Source: Miltoncostaea marina
GTDB taxonomy: Bacteria > Actinomycetota > Thermoleophilia > Miltoncostaeales > Miltoncostaeaceae
DNA length: 64,000 bases
NCBI RefSeq assembly: GCF_018141525.1
Contig: NZ_CP064655.1
Location: 248,001-312,000, forward strand
Direction: 5' to 3'
The position numbers and the translations under genes were made by a program. Of the stretch, positions 9,089 through 15,331 are shown piece after piece; position 1 is the stretch's first letter, and every line of letters begins with the position of its first letter. A model generated the notes under the pieces. It did no database searches, was not told the origin of the DNA, and worked only from the letters and a program-made list of their open reading frames with translations.

Positions 9089-9961
9089 GTGATCGACCTC
9101 GACCTGGCCGGGCTGCGCGGCGCCTTCGGCGCCGGCGTCGCCGGCAACTTCGCCGGCCACCTCGAGCAGGCGGGCGAGGCGGCCGACTTCGCGGCCGTCG
9201 CGACCGGCCCCGACGAGGCGCCGAAGGGCGTCTTCCCCTGGTACGTGCCCGGCGCCCCCGGCTTCCTCGGCGTCTTCCCGCTCTCGCACGACCGGCTGGC
9301 GCGCCCGCGGCCGGACGGCGGGCCGGTCAACCTGCAGATCGAGCCCGAGGCGGGTGTGCTCATGGACGTCCGCTACGCCGCGGACGGCGCCGTGGAGGGG
9401 CTCGCGCCGCGGGCGCTGGGCGCGTTCAACGACTGCTCGATCCGGCGGCCGGGGGCGCCCAAGATCAGCCACAAGAAGAACTGGGGGCCCGACTCGAAGG
9501 GGGTCGCGCGGCGGGCGTTCGCCGTCGACGACCTCGACCCGGCCGGCCCGACGGCGTCCTTCCGGCTCGCGAGCTTCCTGCGCCGCGACGGGGTGGCCCG
9601 CGCCTACGGCATCGACAGCCCGCTCCCCGGCTACTCCTACTACGGCGCCCGTCTGCTCGACTGGATCGCCGACCGCCTGCGCCACCAGGCCGGCGACGCG
9701 CCGGGGTCGCCGCTCGAGCCCGTGGGCGAGTACCTGGCCGCCGCGGGGCGGCCCGCGACGCTGCTGGTCGGCATCGGCGCCACCCGCTACACGCCCCTCG
9801 GCGAGTCGACGTACCTCGAGGCCGGCGACGAGGCCGTCGTCGTGGTCTACGACGCGTCGCGATGCCCGTCCGAGCGGGTGGAGGCGGCGGTGGAGCGCGG
9901 CGAGGAGGGCGATCTGCCCGCAGCCTCCGTGCTCACCCAGGCGGTGTACGCCGCCGGCTGA
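9089..9961 (+). CDS. DUF5718-like protein of unknown function
   Basis: 290 residues, soluble, no signal peptide. Notable segments are GVAGNFAGHLEQAGEAADF near the N-terminus, APKGVFPWYVPG, NDCSIRRPGAPKISHKKNWG and LPGYSYYGARLLDWI. These match my memory of the DUF5718 family, whose members show FAH-like layout, but I cannot verify this. Divergent from the P450 gene, with only about 68 bp between the starts, and convergent with the next gene. The reaction is unknown. GTG start with a leaderless-type promoter. Confidence 0.6.
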   Translation: MIDLDLAGLRGAFGAGVAGNFAGHLEQAGEAADFAAVATGPDEAPKGVFPWYVPGAPGFLGVFPLSHDRLARPRPDGGPVNLQIEPEAGVLMDVRYAADGAVEGLAPRALGAFNDCSIRRPGAPKISHKKNWGPDSKGVARRAFAVDDLDPAGPTASFRLASFLRRDGVARAYGIDSPLPGYSYYGARLLDWIADRLRHQAGDAPGSPLEPVGEYLAAAGRPATLLVGIGATRYTPLGESTYLEAGDEAVVVVYDASRCPSERVEAAVERGEEGDLPAASVLTQAVYAAG

Positions 9962-9977: not shown

Positions 9978-10646
9978 TCACAGCCCGCGCCGCACCCCCG
10001 CCTCCCGCGCCACGTCGGCCAGCTGATCGGCGAGCGAGCCGTCGATCGCCCGCCGGCCGCCCCCGCGCCGCCCGACGGGCAGCACCGTGCGCCCGCGCGC
10101 GTCCTCGAGCGCCAGGGCCAGCGCGGCGTAGACCGCGAGCGCGCACAGCGCGAGCCCCACGACCCCCGCGGGCCGGCGCATGGCCTCGGCGCCCAGCTCG
10201 TCGGCGCCGGTCACCGCGAAGCGCGCGGACGAGGTGGCGACCACCGCGGCCGGCACGACCTTCGTCCCGGCCGCGGCGAGGGCAGGCACCAGCAGCGCCA
10301 CGGCGGCCAGGGCGAGGATGGTGCCGAGGGCGTCGCTGCGCGCGCCGGCCGCCGTCGTCAGCAGGACGAGCGACGACGACAGCCACGTGCCGGCGAGCAC
10401 CCCCATCGCCGTCCCCGCGACCACGTCCCGCGCGGCGAACCCGAGCACCGACGACACGAGCTGCAGCGGCACCACGAAGGCGAGCAGGATCACGCCCACC
10501 TGCTCGCGCTCGGACGCCCCGATCCAGCCGAGCTCGAGCCCGGACATCATCAGCGTGCCGCCGGCCAGCGCCAGGAAGCCCAGCGGCAGGGGCGTGGCGA
10601 GCGGGCGCAGCACCACCCGCGCCTCGGGGCCGGGCGCGGCGCTCAC
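9978..10646 (-). CDS. Multi-pass membrane protein, possibly GPR1/FUN34/YaaH-like
   Basis: 222 residues from the GTG whose first base is 10646. Six hydrophobic segments can be seen (PLGFLALAGGTLMMSGL, VGVILLAFVVPLQLVSSVLG, TAMGVLAGTWLSSSLVLL, LGTILALAAVALLVPALAAA, VVPAAVVATSSA, AGVVGLALCALAVYAALALAL). The PLPLGFLALA opening resembles acetate-uptake (YaaH/SatP) proteins, but the match is partial. The start overlaps the upstream stop by 4 bases (GTGA), so it is translationally coupled to the helical protein and the molybdoenzyme before it. It may anchor or feed that system. Confidence 0.6.
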   Translation of the reverse strand: MSAAPGPEARVVLRPLATPLPLGFLALAGGTLMMSGLELGWIGASEREQVGVILLAFVVPLQLVSSVLGFAARDVVAGTAMGVLAGTWLSSSLVLLTTAAGARSDALGTILALAAVALLVPALAAAGTKVVPAAVVATSSARFAVTGADELGAEAMRRPAGVVGLALCALAVYAALALALEDARGRTVLPVGRRGGGRRAIDGSLADQLADVAREAGVRRGL

Positions 10647-11101
10647 GCGACGACGAGCGCCTGGGGTGCCGCCTGCTTCATCCGGGTCCGCAGCCACGCG
10701 AGCTGGGTCGCCGTCTCGTGCTCGCACGCGTCCACCACGGCGAGCAGCTCGGTGTCGCGCGCGCCCTGCGCCCCCTGGCCGATCATCGTCCACGAGATGT
10801 CGCACTCGCTGGCCATCAGGTACAGGTCGTGCAGGTCGCGCAGCAGGCCCAGGCCGCCGCTGCGCACGCCGTCGCCGAACAGGTCGGAGTGCAGGCGCTC
10901 GGGCTCGTCCTCCTGCTCCTCGCCGTAGCGCTCGGCGAACGGCCGCAGCGCCGCGGCGTGGCGGTCGCACTGCGCCGCCAGGCGCTCGCAGATGTGGAAC
11001 ACGTCCGGCTCCTCGGCGTGACCGCGCGCGACGGTGCGGAAGGCGTCGGCGAGCTCGCCCTCCGAGCGGTGGAGCAGGCCGAGGTAGTCGGCGAGGTGCA
11101 C
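10643..11101 (-). CDS. His-rich helical protein paired with a molybdoenzyme
   Basis: 152 residues, almost wholly helical, with recurrent His, Glu and Cys: HLADYLGLLHRSEGE, HAEEPDVFHICERLAAQCDRHAAAL, YLMASECDISW, DACEHETATQLAWLRTRMKQAAPQ. This looks like a four-helix bundle of ferritin or hemerythrin style, though no exact metal motif can be named. GTG start one base after the molybdoenzyme stop, and a 4-base overlap with the membrane-protein gene. I recall similar unnamed proteins beside similar oxidoreductases in other actinobacteria. It may be an electron-transfer partner or maturation factor; this is inference. Confidence 0.6.
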   Translation of the reverse strand: MHLADYLGLLHRSEGELADAFRTVARGHAEEPDVFHICERLAAQCDRHAAALRPFAERYGEEQEDEPERLHSDLFGDGVRSGGLGLLRDLHDLYLMASECDISWTMIGQGAQGARDTELLAVVDACEHETATQLAWLRTRMKQAAPQALVVA

Positions 11102-11102
11102 G

Positions 11103-13556
11103 TCAGGCCTCCTCCATCCTCGACCGCGCCTCGGCGGCCGCGCCGCCCGTCGTGGCGGGCGCGGCGACGCCGGCGGCCGGCGCCGACGCGCCGGTCGTCG
11201 GGGCGGGCGACGGCCCGTCGCCGGCGCCCAGGCGCGTCACCCGCACGGCGGCGACCTTGAAGGCGGGCTGCTTCGACACCGGGTCCCATGCCGTGATGGT
11301 CAGCTCGTTGGCCGCCCGCCCGGCGCCGGCGCCGGGGCCGGCGGCATCGCCGGCGTCCCAGTAGCCGTAGTGGAACGGCACGAAGACCACCCCGGGGCGC
11401 ACGCCGGAGATGCGGGCGGGCGCCTCGATCGCGCCGCGCGGCGACTCGACCCGCATCCGGTCGCCCTCCGACGCTCCCAGCGCCGCCGCGTCGGCGGCGT
11501 TCAGCTCCACCCACACGTCCGGCGCGGCCGCCGCGAGCTGCGACGCGCGCCCGGTCTTCGTGCGCGTGTGGAAGTGGTAGACCGTGCGCCCGGTGGTCAG
11601 CACGAGCGGGTAGTCGTCGCTCGTGCGCTCGGGGGGCGGGGTCCACTCGTGCGCCTGCAGGAACGCCCGGCCGCGCGGCTCCCTCGCGCGGTACTCCGCC
11701 TCCGTGTGAGCCGCGCCGGTCGTCAGGTCGTGGCCGTACGTCTCGCAGAAGTCGGGGTCGGTGTTGAACCGCCCGCCGGCGTAGAGCCGCTCCGTGCCGT
11801 GCGGCGCCTCGTCGGTGCAGGGCCACTGCACGCCGCTGCCGCCGCGCAGCATGTCGTAGGTGATGCCCGTGTAGTCGCACGGCCGGCCCCGCGAGCAGGC
11901 CTTCCACGCCTCGAAGGCCCCCTCCGCGTCGTGCCACTTCACCAGCGGCGCGCCGTCGCGGTCGCGGAAGTCCATCCGCCGCGCGTAGTCGAGGAAGATG
12001 TCCAGGTCGGGCCGGGCCTCGCCGGGCGGCTCCACGGCCGTCTCGGAGATGTGCACCGTGCGGTCGACGCTCGTGAAGGTGCCGAGCTTCTCGCCCCATG
12101 TGGCCGCCGGCAGCACGATGTCGGCGAGGCGGGCGGTCTCGGTGAGGAACAGGTCCTGCACGACCAGGAACAGCTCCTCCCTGCCGAGGATCGACCGGAT
12201 CCGGCCGAGGTCGGGCAGCGAGACGGCCGGGTTGGTCGCCGACACCCACAGCAGCCGGATCGAGCCCTGCTCGGCGTAGCGGAAGATCTGCATCGCGTGG
12301 GTCGGCGGGGCCCAGTGCGGGATGATCGCGGGGTCCACGTTCCACAGCGCGGCCAGCTCGCGGATGTGCTCGGCGTTGTCCCAGTTGCGCATGCCGGGCA
12401 GGTCGCCGTCGGCGCCGGTCTCGCGCGTGTTCTGGGCGGTCGGCTGCCCGTTCATCTGGTAGATGCCGGCGCCCGGCAGGCCGATCATGCCCCGCAGCAG
12501 GTGGATGTTGTTCACCGCGCACGACGCCGCGGTCGCCTCGTGTGACTGGTAGAAGCCCTGCAGCACCGTCGACAGCAGCCGCGAGCAGGTGCCGAGCAGG
12601 CGGGCCGCGGCGCGGACGTCGTCCGACGGCACGCGGCAGATGTCCGCGACCCGGCCCGGCGGGTAGCCGGCCGTGAGCCGCTCGAGCGCCTCGAAGCCGA
12701 GCGTGCTGGCGCGCACGTAGCGCTCGTCGATCCACCCGTTGCGGATGAGCTCGTGCACGAGGCCGTTCATCAGCGCGAGGTTGGTGCCGCTGACCGGCGC
12801 CAGGTGGACGTCGGCCTCGCGGGCGACCGGCGTCAGGCGCGGGTCGACGCACAGCAGCGCCGGCCGGTCGGCGCCGTGCAGGCGGTCGAGCATGCGGGCC
12901 CAGAGCATCGTCTGCGTCTCGGCCACGTTGTGGCCGTAGACGGCGATCGCGTCGCAGTGGTCGACGTCGGTGTACGAGCCCGGCTGGCCGTCGGTGCCGA
13001 AGCTCGCCTTGAGCGCCGCCGCGGCGGTCGCCGTGCAGAGGCGGGTGTTGCCGTCCATGTGCGGCGTGCCGATGCCGGCCTTCCCGATCACGCCCAGCGT
13101 GTAGTACTCCTCCAGGAAGAGCTGGCCGCTGGTGTAGAAGCCGAAGCGCCCCCACCCGCCCGGGCCGCTGCCGAGCAGCTCGCGCGAGCGCTCCACCACG
13201 CGCCCCATCGCCGTGTCCCAGTCGGTCTCCACCAGCCGGCCGCCCTCGCGCACCAGCGGGCGGGTGAGCCGGTCGCGCGAGCGGTTCGCCTGCCAGCCGA
13301 AGAGGTCCTTGGGGCCCAGGCGGCCGCGGTTGACCCGGTCGACCGCCCGGCCCCGCACGCCCACGAGGCGGCCGTCCCGCACGGCCATGTCGTACGCGTC
13401 GCCGTTCGAGTGCAGGATCGAGGCGGTCTGCACCCAGCGCTCGACGTCCTCCTCCCGCGTGCCCTCCTCGAGGAAGACGTCGGTCCTCGCCGGCCACTCC
13501 CCGCCGCGGGCGTACGGCGTCCGCGGACCCCACGGATCGGCGATCCGGTCGGGCAT
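11103..13556 (-). CDS. Molybdopterin (bis-MGD) oxidoreductase lacking the N-terminal Fe-S cysteines
   Basis: 817 residues from ATG 13556, which follows AAGGAG; the upstream GTG abuts the Shine-Dalgarno and is rejected. Family core: DTAMGRVVERSRELL, MDGNTRLCTATAAAALK (C174, likely Mo ligand, as in Nap/Nas enzymes), GLPGAGIYQMNGQPTAQNTRE, and a C-terminal MGD-binding domain (VLTTGRTVYHFHTRTKTGR). The N-terminal cluster motif (CxxCxxxC) is replaced by ASILHSNGDAYD (residues 45-56), so no [4Fe-4S] cluster seems possible there. No twin-arginine signal. It ends in an Ala-rich tail of about 40 residues. First gene of a three-gene run; substrate unknown. Confidence 0.82.
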   Translation of the reverse strand: MPDRIADPWGPRTPYARGGEWPARTDVFLEEGTREEDVERWVQTASILHSNGDAYDMAVRDGRLVGVRGRAVDRVNRGRLGPKDLFGWQANRSRDRLTRPLVREGGRLVETDWDTAMGRVVERSRELLGSGPGGWGRFGFYTSGQLFLEEYYTLGVIGKAGIGTPHMDGNTRLCTATAAAALKASFGTDGQPGSYTDVDHCDAIAVYGHNVAETQTMLWARMLDRLHGADRPALLCVDPRLTPVAREADVHLAPVSGTNLALMNGLVHELIRNGWIDERYVRASTLGFEALERLTAGYPPGRVADICRVPSDDVRAAARLLGTCSRLLSTVLQGFYQSHEATAASCAVNNIHLLRGMIGLPGAGIYQMNGQPTAQNTRETGADGDLPGMRNWDNAEHIRELAALWNVDPAIIPHWAPPTHAMQIFRYAEQGSIRLLWVSATNPAVSLPDLGRIRSILGREELFLVVQDLFLTETARLADIVLPAATWGEKLGTFTSVDRTVHISETAVEPPGEARPDLDIFLDYARRMDFRDRDGAPLVKWHDAEGAFEAWKACSRGRPCDYTGITYDMLRGGSGVQWPCTDEAPHGTERLYAGGRFNTDPDFCETYGHDLTTGAAHTEAEYRAREPRGRAFLQAHEWTPPPERTSDDYPLVLTTGRTVYHFHTRTKTGRASQLAAAAPDVWVELNAADAAALGASEGDRMRVESPRGAIEAPARISGVRPGVVFVPFHYGYWDAGDAAGPGAGAGRAANELTITAWDPVSKQPAFKVAAVRVTRLGAGDGPSPAPTTGASAPAAGVAAPATTGGAAAEARSRMEEA

Positions 13557-13702: not shown

Positions 13703-15331
13703 ATGGCCCCTGTGCCCCGCATCCCGGACCGCGCGACCCCCGGGCGGCGCCCGCGCCGCGCGCTCGGCGTGGCCGGCGCCGCGCTGGCGGGGGTCGTCGC
13801 CTACGACCTCACCCAGCGCAAGCACGCCATCCTGCGCAACTTCCCGGTGGTCGGTCACCTGCGCTACATCCTCGAGGCCTTCGGGCCCGAGCTGCGCCAG
13901 TACATCGTCACGGGCAACGACGAGGAGCGGCCCTTCTCGCGCAACCAGCGGCGCTGGGTCTACGCGACCGCCAAGCGGCAGGATCCGCACTTCGGCTTCG
14001 GCACCGACACCGACTGGTCGCGGCGTCCCGGGCACGTGCTGGTCAAGCAGGCCGAGTTCCCGCTGCACCCGCCGCCCGGCGGCGACCCGGCGGGGTGGCC
14101 GCTGCCCTGTGCGAAGGTCGTGGGCGCGCGCCACGGCCGCCGCCACGCGTTCCGCCCCGCCTCCGCGGTCAACGTGTCGGGCATGAGCTTCGGCGCGCTC
14201 GGCTCGCACGCCGTCGAGGCGATCAACCGCGGCTGCGCCGCCGCGGGCTGCCTGCACAACACCGGCGAGGGCGGCCTGAGCGTCCACCACCAGCACGGGG
14301 CCGAGCTCGTCTTCCAGATCGGCACCGCCTACTTCGGCTGCCGCGACGAGCGCGGCCGGTTCAGCCTGCCGAGGCTGCAGGAGGTCGTCGCCGAGAACCC
14401 CGTGCGGGCGATCGAGATCAAGCTCAGCCAGGGCGCCAAGCCGGGCGTCGGCGGGCTGCTGCCCGGCGCGAAGGTGACCCCCGACATCGCCGCCGCCCGC
14501 GGCGTGCCGGTGGGCGAGGACTGCCAGAGCCCGTCCGGCCACACGGAGTTCGGTGACCTCGACGGCCTGGTCGAGTTCATCGAGCGCATCGCCGACGCCA
14601 CCGGCCTGCCCGTCGGCGTCAAGTCGGCGGTCGGCGAGCAGGGCTTCTGGGACGACCTGGCCCGCCGGATGTCCGACGAGCGCGCCGGCCCGGACTTCAT
14701 CACCATCGATGGCGGCGAGGGCGGCACCGGCGCGGGGCCGCTGGCCTTCACCGACCACGTGGCGCTGCCGCTGCGGCTGGCCCTCTCACGCGTGTACCGC
14801 ACCTTCGCCGAGGCCGGCATCGCCGACGAGGTGGTGTTCGGCGCGTCGGGGATGCTGGGCCTGCCCTCCAACGCGCTGCTGGCCTTCGCGATGGGCGCCG
14901 ACCTCGTCAACGTGGGTCGCGAGGCGATGCTCTCGGTGGGCTGCATCCAGGCCCAGCGCTGCCACACCGGCCGGTGCCCCACCGGCGTCGCGACCAACTC
15001 GGCCTGGCTGCAGCGCGGGCTGGACCCGGTGCGGGCCGGCGAGCGGTGCGCCAACTACCTGGCGGGCCTGCGGGCGGAGCTCGTGCGGCTGGCCCGCACC
15101 TGCGGCGTTCCCCACCCCGCCCTCGTCGACCTCAACGCGATCGAGCTGCTCGACGGCCTGGGGTCGCTGCCCGCGGCGAAGGAGTTCAACTACACGGCCG
15201 GCTGGGGCCTGCCGTCCGACGCCGACCGCGACGAGCTGCTGCGCCTGATGGGCGAGCTCGCCACCGTCCGGCCAGAGGCGCGCAAGCGGGAGATCCCCAC
15301 CGGCCGGCGCGAGCTCCCCCGGGTGCCGTAG
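13703..15331 (+). CDS. FMN-binding glutamate synthase-family protein (GltB central/FMN domain)
   Basis: 542 residues. One N-terminal hydrophobic stretch (ALGVAGAALAGVVAYDL) may anchor it. The FMN/TIM-barrel part shows VNVSGMSFGALGSHAVEA, GEGGLSVHHQHGAEL, IEIKLSQGAKPGVGG, DGGEGGTGAGPLAF and the cysteine-rich CHTGRCPTGVATN of GltB-like enzymes. There is no amidotransferase domain and no GltD partner, so it is a stand-alone member (COG0069 type) rather than a full GOGAT. Divergent from the molybdoenzyme operon. The physiological reaction of stand-alone members is generally unclear. Confidence 0.82.
   Translation: MAPVPRIPDRATPGRRPRRALGVAGAALAGVVAYDLTQRKHAILRNFPVVGHLRYILEAFGPELRQYIVTGNDEERPFSRNQRRWVYATAKRQDPHFGFGTDTDWSRRPGHVLVKQAEFPLHPPPGGDPAGWPLPCAKVVGARHGRRHAFRPASAVNVSGMSFGALGSHAVEAINRGCAAAGCLHNTGEGGLSVHHQHGAELVFQIGTAYFGCRDERGRFSLPRLQEVVAENPVRAIEIKLSQGAKPGVGGLLPGAKVTPDIAAARGVPVGEDCQSPSGHTEFGDLDGLVEFIERIADATGLPVGVKSAVGEQGFWDDLARRMSDERAGPDFITIDGGEGGTGAGPLAFTDHVALPLRLALSRVYRTFAEAGIADEVVFGASGMLGLPSNALLAFAMGADLVNVGREAMLSVGCIQAQRCHTGRCPTGVATNSAWLQRGLDPVRAGERCANYLAGLRAELVRLARTCGVPHPALVDLNAIELLDGLGSLPAAKEFNYTAGWGLPSDADRDELLRLMGELATVRPEARKREIPTGRRELPRVP

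Follow-up and report, generated by a model that had tools for sequence, protein, structure and literature searches.

This locus, which lies in a 64,000-nucleotide window (the whole stretch of DNA analysed; contig NZ_CP064655.1, positions 248,001 to 312,000) of the Miltoncostaea marina genome, raises the question of how a molybdoenzyme may operate once the cysteines of its first iron-sulfur (Fe-S) relay have disappeared. Three genes are concerned: gene A encodes an oxidoreductase of the NapA/NasC type, gene B a small protein with a ferritin-like fold, and gene C a membrane protein (Table 1). We give about an even chance to the reading that A and B together make up a molybdoenzyme of two components in the dimethyl sulfoxide (DMSO) reductase superfamily, i.e. 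an oxyanion reductase, most likely of the nitrate type, which has lost its cluster and acts with an obligate partner of ferritin fold. The cluster-free, NasC-like branch itself, with its fixed replacement residues and this obligate partner, we regard as real; in the open-access literature, our searches turned up no description of a NasC branch free of Fe-S.

By its sequence, A belongs to the DMSO reductase superfamily, whose members carry molybdenum or tungsten on bis(pyranopterin guanine dinucleotide) (Mo/W-bisPGD). Its matches to PF00384 (2e-46) and PF01568 (7e-32) both exceed the curated Pfam cut-offs, and both domains were matched in all 55 A members examined; the Pfam search gave no match in A to PF04879, the Fe4S4 domain. 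The nearest solved relative by sequence is NapA of D. desulfuricans (371 bits), with which A aligns across its length. NapA is also the best structural match (template modelling score, TM, 0.93 to 2jio) of the AlphaFold model of A, which has a predicted local distance difference test score (pLDDT) of 91. NCBIfam scores lie far below the cut-offs for NasC (362 vs 1100 bits) and NapA (257 vs 930), and that of the highest-scoring profile, Fdh-alpha, is also too low (402 vs 666). The first-pass annotation had read an intact Mo-ligand region, RLC174TATA, and this holds: Cys174 is invariant across 55 aligned relatives and falls on the Cys that ligates Mo in NapA. The channel residues reported for CjNapA (Arg174, Asp191, Arg463/471 and His715; PMC12769810) have their counterparts in R172, D189, R378 and H663, as read from the sequence alignment, and R378-E379 matches the GRE(T/V)GG of NasC. 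Hence the fold, the position of the Mo-Cys, the pterin-contacting Lys, the R-E pair and the oxyanion channel residues are common to A, NasC/NarB and NapA. A differs from them in the missing cluster cysteines, in His49, Asp53 and Asp84, in the obligate B, and in a Thr after the Mo-Cys.

At the position of the NapA/NasC motif CxxCxxxC, A reads RWVQTASILHSNGDAYDMAV, and GPKD stands at the position of CxKG. Among 111 unique related loci, which were chosen by similarity to a His-type query so that the type counts are not a census, 98 are of this His-type, devoid of cluster cysteines, and 13 are of a Cys-type. All His-type members possess H49, D53, R74, K83 and D84, with S, T or A at position 46; at position 81, where the fourth Cys would canonically stand, 53 of them have Gly and 45 have Asp. 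All Cys-type members possess C46-x2-C49-x3-C53 together with Gly81 and Gly84, and K83 is kept; Arg74 occurs in only 3 of these 13, as compared with 98 of 98. When full-length sequences are compared (96 His-type against 12 Cys-type rows), columns 46, 49, 53 and 84 alone separate the two types perfectly, which confines the change to the cluster pocket and the pterin junction. The recurrence of the same replacement residues in 98 loci excludes chance, a sequencing error or a pseudogene as the cause, and the earlier observation that A is without Fe-S cysteines (S46, H49, D53 and G81 in their place) is thus extended to a whole branch. With these cysteines lost, the [4Fe-4S] relay is, judging from sequence, gone from His-type A. 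Lys83 stays even where the cluster is gone; its equivalent in NapA sits between the cluster and the proximal pterin and is required for activity (PMC12769810).

Even the Cys-type relatives miss the canonical set of four cysteines, since Gly81 occupies the fourth position in all 13, and they therefore represent a natural intermediate. Arsenite oxidase AioA holds a [3Fe-4S] cluster on three Cys, its fourth ligand being replaced. Cys-type A resembles it in this respect and differs in having Gly81 at the fourth position and in being NasC-like elsewhere; by analogy, its cluster may be [3Fe-4S]. The tree of A was built without the motif columns in order to test the origin of the His-type. The free tree required two to three changes, but a tree constrained to a single His-type clade was not rejected by the approximately unbiased test (p-AU 0.63) and even reached a higher likelihood, so that separate origins were discarded. 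The proximal cluster was probably lost once, in actinobacteria.

DorA, TorA and BisC are reductases of the superfamily that function without an N-terminal cluster. Their sequences are far from that of A, at about 50 to 103 bits where NasC reaches 362 and NapA 371, and their Mo ligand is Ser, not Cys; the loss in A is independent of theirs and lies inside the NapA/NasC branch. Their existence also bears on the explanation that A is no longer an electron-consuming reductase and performs redox-neutral Mo chemistry or serves as a non-catalytic binding or sensor protein. This is unlikely in our estimation. The only internal relay has been lost, no redox partner gene recurs in the flanks, and the superfamily does include redox-neutral members such as acetylene hydratase and transhydroxylase; yet acetylene hydratase keeps its cluster, cluster-free reductases do function, and Cys174, Lys83, R378, H663 and the pterin-binding domains of A are invariant or nearly so.

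We accordingly prefer A as a NapA/NasC-like reductase of nitrate or a related small oxyanion, with a Mo-bis-pterin presumably held by Cys174. In one actinobacterial lineage, S/T/A46, His49 and Asp53 would have taken the place of the three cysteines, and Asp84 that of the Gly following the pterin-contacting Lys, with Arg74 becoming fixed and Lys83 retained. A soluble donor, we infer, could then pass electrons straight to the pterin at the remodelled pocket, as in Fe-S-free members of the superfamily. What replaces the cluster is more challenging to interpret. A more far-reaching form of the model, which we think rather doubtful, proposes that a widespread NapA/NasC-type branch swapped the relay for a fixed His-Asp-Asp(-Arg) site, which could be a mononuclear metal centre of a new kind or else a network of charges, with electrons taken directly at the pterin and Lys83 and the obligate ferritin-fold subunit aiding donor docking. 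In a narrower variant, somewhat less probable still, His49, Asp53 and Asp84 (with Asp81 in about half of the members) bind a single metal ion, as a relay or as a structural centre in place of the cluster. All 98 His-type loci share His49, Asp53 and Asp84, which change in step with the cysteines, occupy two of the ligand-Cys positions and adjoin Lys83; however, the co-fixed Arg74 (98/98 vs 3/13) fits a cavity-filling salt-bridge network equally well.

The partner B is predicted to have a ferritin-like four-helix fold, in line with the four-helix type that had been proposed from its letters. The AlphaFold model is a confident bundle (pLDDT 92.8) of the bacterioferritin/rubrerythrin type, with a VIA Z of up to 18.6 over 143 residues; Foldseek matches have E values no better than 1e-3. 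Its predicted fold resembles bacterioferritin, rubrerythrin and YciF/YciE over the whole length (Z about 17-18.6), at about 6-16% identity and without their conserved ExxH pairs. No solved relatives were found by sequence, none of 66 B members matched an NCBIfam profile, and the best Pfam match of B (DUF2383) is below the cut-off. The di-iron ligand set of the ferritin-like proteins, which comprises a pair of ExxH motifs and two more carboxylates, is absent, as no ExxH motif occurs in helices 2 or 4: positions 45-48 read C/S-x-x-H, helix 4 contains CxxE or CHPQ, and no Glu is conserved at 90%. Invariant are L90, W104, Q109 and A111, and nearly so H28, D89, W136, K142 and Q147.

Genes A and B are tightly coupled. 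In all 106 measured pairs, B comes directly after A and shares its strand, at a distance of -16 to +12 bases, with a 4-base overlap in 58 of them, and on a plasmid of Halomonas sp. KO116 both are fused into one reading frame of 942 aa (L137, 5983-8811). B also adjoins Cys-type A in seven genera that keep CxxCxxxC, namely Amycolatopsis, Saccharothrix, Prauserella, Curtobacterium, Deinococcus, Hymenobacter and Halomonas (43-66% identity); these cover four phyla, and B is equally conserved there. It follows that B predates the cysteine loss and cannot have been brought in as a substitute for the cluster. The proposal of the first-pass annotation that the helical protein stands in for the Fe-S relay as an electron carrier is therefore improbable; such relatives, with their cysteines and the same neighbors, are what the annotation itself had named as counter-evidence. 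The ferritin-like fold can host metals, B is always paired with A in the measured set, and His-type B often has His11, His28, His48 and Cys126. However, the helices are without ExxH motifs, the conserved residues correspond to no known redox-metal set and are the same beside both types of A, and the Glu14/His48 pattern, tested against the cysteine loss in A, did not track with it. We rather take B for a subunit or a maturation partner, and the fusion in Halomonas leans towards a subunit. In the model that we prefer, B would thus be an obligate ferritin-fold component older than the cysteine loss in A.

The third gene was thought to be part of a three-gene system and to have no clear function. 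As had been noted, the genes are closely packed (a gap of 1 base between A and B, and a 4-base GTGA overlap between B and C), but only the A-B pair persists as a conserved unit; a homolog of C stands beside it in 16 of 116 loci, and C is one of several interchangeable neighbors. Nor is its family obscure, since C exceeds the cut-off of PF01184 (GPR1/FUN34/YaaH; E 1e-7, 32 bits vs 25). With respect to the known members SatP and AceTr, it remains below the NCBIfam acetate-transporter cut-offs (AceTr_1, 25.5 vs 50). In 40 of the 116 loci, a channel lies within 500 bases of A-B: YaaH in 16, HPP in 20, SLAC1 in 3 and FNT, a formate/nitrite channel, in 1. Elsewhere in the flanks, these families occur only 6 times, and a search for a conserved cluster wider than A and B plus such a channel gave none. 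The occupation of this one slot by four unrelated families, all channels for small anions, hints that the enzyme has a small anion as its substrate or product, which the third gene (YaaH here; HPP, SLAC1 or FNT elsewhere) would move. HPP proteins carry nitrite according to Maeda 2014, as cited in PMC4137279.

The same neighbors can be read differently, namely as a sign that A oxidises formate or a small carboxylate. FNT in Deinococcus and YaaH in the window belong to families of formate and acetate channels, HPP, fdhD and a formate dehydrogenase (FdhD-FdhF) come after the fused gene of Halomonas, and among the NCBIfam profiles Fdh-alpha scores highest, without reaching its cut-off. We consider this explanation quite unlikely, because A has Thr175 where formate dehydrogenases have a His after the Mo ligand, the R-E pair matches NasC, HPP and SLAC1 indicate nitrite or nitrate, and FdhD was not found in the genome of the window. 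That genome, with no FdhD detected, encodes a second, FdhF-like molybdoenzyme with canonical LCVKG (G000:C1:2158580-2160583; L151).

Several observations weigh against a nitrate-type reductase with an obligate partner. Within the active site, the residue after the Mo-Cys is Thr175 and in NapA it is Met, and Glu192 of CjNapA is Gly in A, as in NasC. YaaH-family proteins are known to carry acetate and succinate rather than nitrite. The distribution of nirB speaks for a nitrate role: 12 of the 22 genomes with A have it over its cut-off, as against 34 of the 324 others, though these are raw counts, uncorrected for kinship and genome size. Likewise in its favor, one genome (G269) contains a four-Cys NasC, nirB, nirD and a NarK-like major-facilitator transporter about 6-10 kb from A-B; but with a normal NasC beside nirBD, A is not needed there as the sole nitrate reductase. 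In the genome of the window, no NirB over the cut-off was found, and the one NIR_SIR-type reductase detected may be a sulfite reductase. A role in nitrate use is consequently possible in Miltoncostaea marina, but not evident. As to the partnership, a member of the same family as Miltoncostaea has a three-Cys A without B (L009; G006), another genome has B without A upstream (L112; G445), and a plasmid of Staphylococcus saprophyticus carries a three-Cys relative of A without B (L139, 5824-8250; 42% identity, GRLGPKG), which is possibly an outgroup of the A family. Two enzymes of Mycobacterium smegmatis were considered as possible known counterparts of A, namely MSMEG_2237 (760 aa) and MSMEG_6816 (720 aa), which were shown to be dispensable for nitrate use (PMC7816997); compared by length alone, both differ from A (817 aa).

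The pair is widespread and occurs in many soil bacteria. A scan of bacterial genomes with A yielded 80 close relatives of 65-77% identity, in Micromonospora, Streptomyces, Nocardia, Arthrobacter, mycobacteria, Blastococcus and others. Of 346 genomes drawn from the phylum as a sample, 22 contain A and 21 contain B, and 19 have the two together; where one is missing, this is mostly due to a contig end (G328, G504) or to a broken frame in the A next to B (G415). Plasmid-borne pairs occur in Deinococcus, Hymenobacter, Halomonas and a cyanobacterium. The cyanobacterial copy, from Gloeothece (L138, 5998-8556), has an unannotated A and a B annotated as two split pieces, and may be decaying. In two further loci (L153, 7556-9626, and L134; G415 and G463), frameshifts or a stop break A beside an intact B, which is decay or assembly error.

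Table 1. Features of the A-B-C locus, in positions of the window.
Feature	Position	Strand	Basis or remark
Gene A, NapA/NasC-type Mo-bis(molybdopterin guanine dinucleotide) (Mo-bisMGD) oxidoreductase without Fe-S cysteines, 817 aa	11103..13556	(-)	Pfam, alignment and model
Cluster-pocket segment of A, S46-x2-H49-x3-D53...R74...G81-P-K83-D84	13304..13421	(-)	Replaces C-x2-C-x3-C...C-x-K-G
Cys174 of A, predicted Mo ligand (RLC174T)	13035..13037	(-)	NapA alignment and conservation
Gene B, predicted ferritin-like four-helix partner, 152 aa	10643..11101	(-)	AlphaFold model, adjacency to A
Gene C, GPR1/FUN34/YaaH-family small-anion transporter, 222 aa	9978..10646	(-)	PF01184
Glutamate-synthase-like single-domain FMN protein (PF01645)	13703-15331	(+)	Divergent from A

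Gene A starts with ATG, with AGGAG a few bases upstream. The divergent glutamate-synthase-like gene was rejected as a partner of A, as it does not recur beside A in other loci. On the other side, a DUF5718 protein (PF18985, 3e-76; 9089-9961 of the window, + strand) converges on gene C, and no relation to A-B-C was seen. A gene of about 600 aa recurs upstream of A in other loci (L012, 3561-5387; L020, 3600-5393; L066, 3494-5272); it precedes HPP in Micromonospora and A in Saccharothrix.

Taken together, one enzyme branch presents a natural series from the four-Cys NasC, through a three-Cys A with B, to an A with B and no cluster cysteines. Hence, what the proximal cluster and the bridging Lys contribute can be tested directly in close relatives of 60-70% identity. 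Behind many actinobacterial 'nitrate reductase' annotations stands another enzyme, free of Fe-S and with a partner that has no name, a point of importance wherever the nitrogen cycle is inferred from genomes. Furthermore, a reductase free of the cluster may be tolerant of oxygen.

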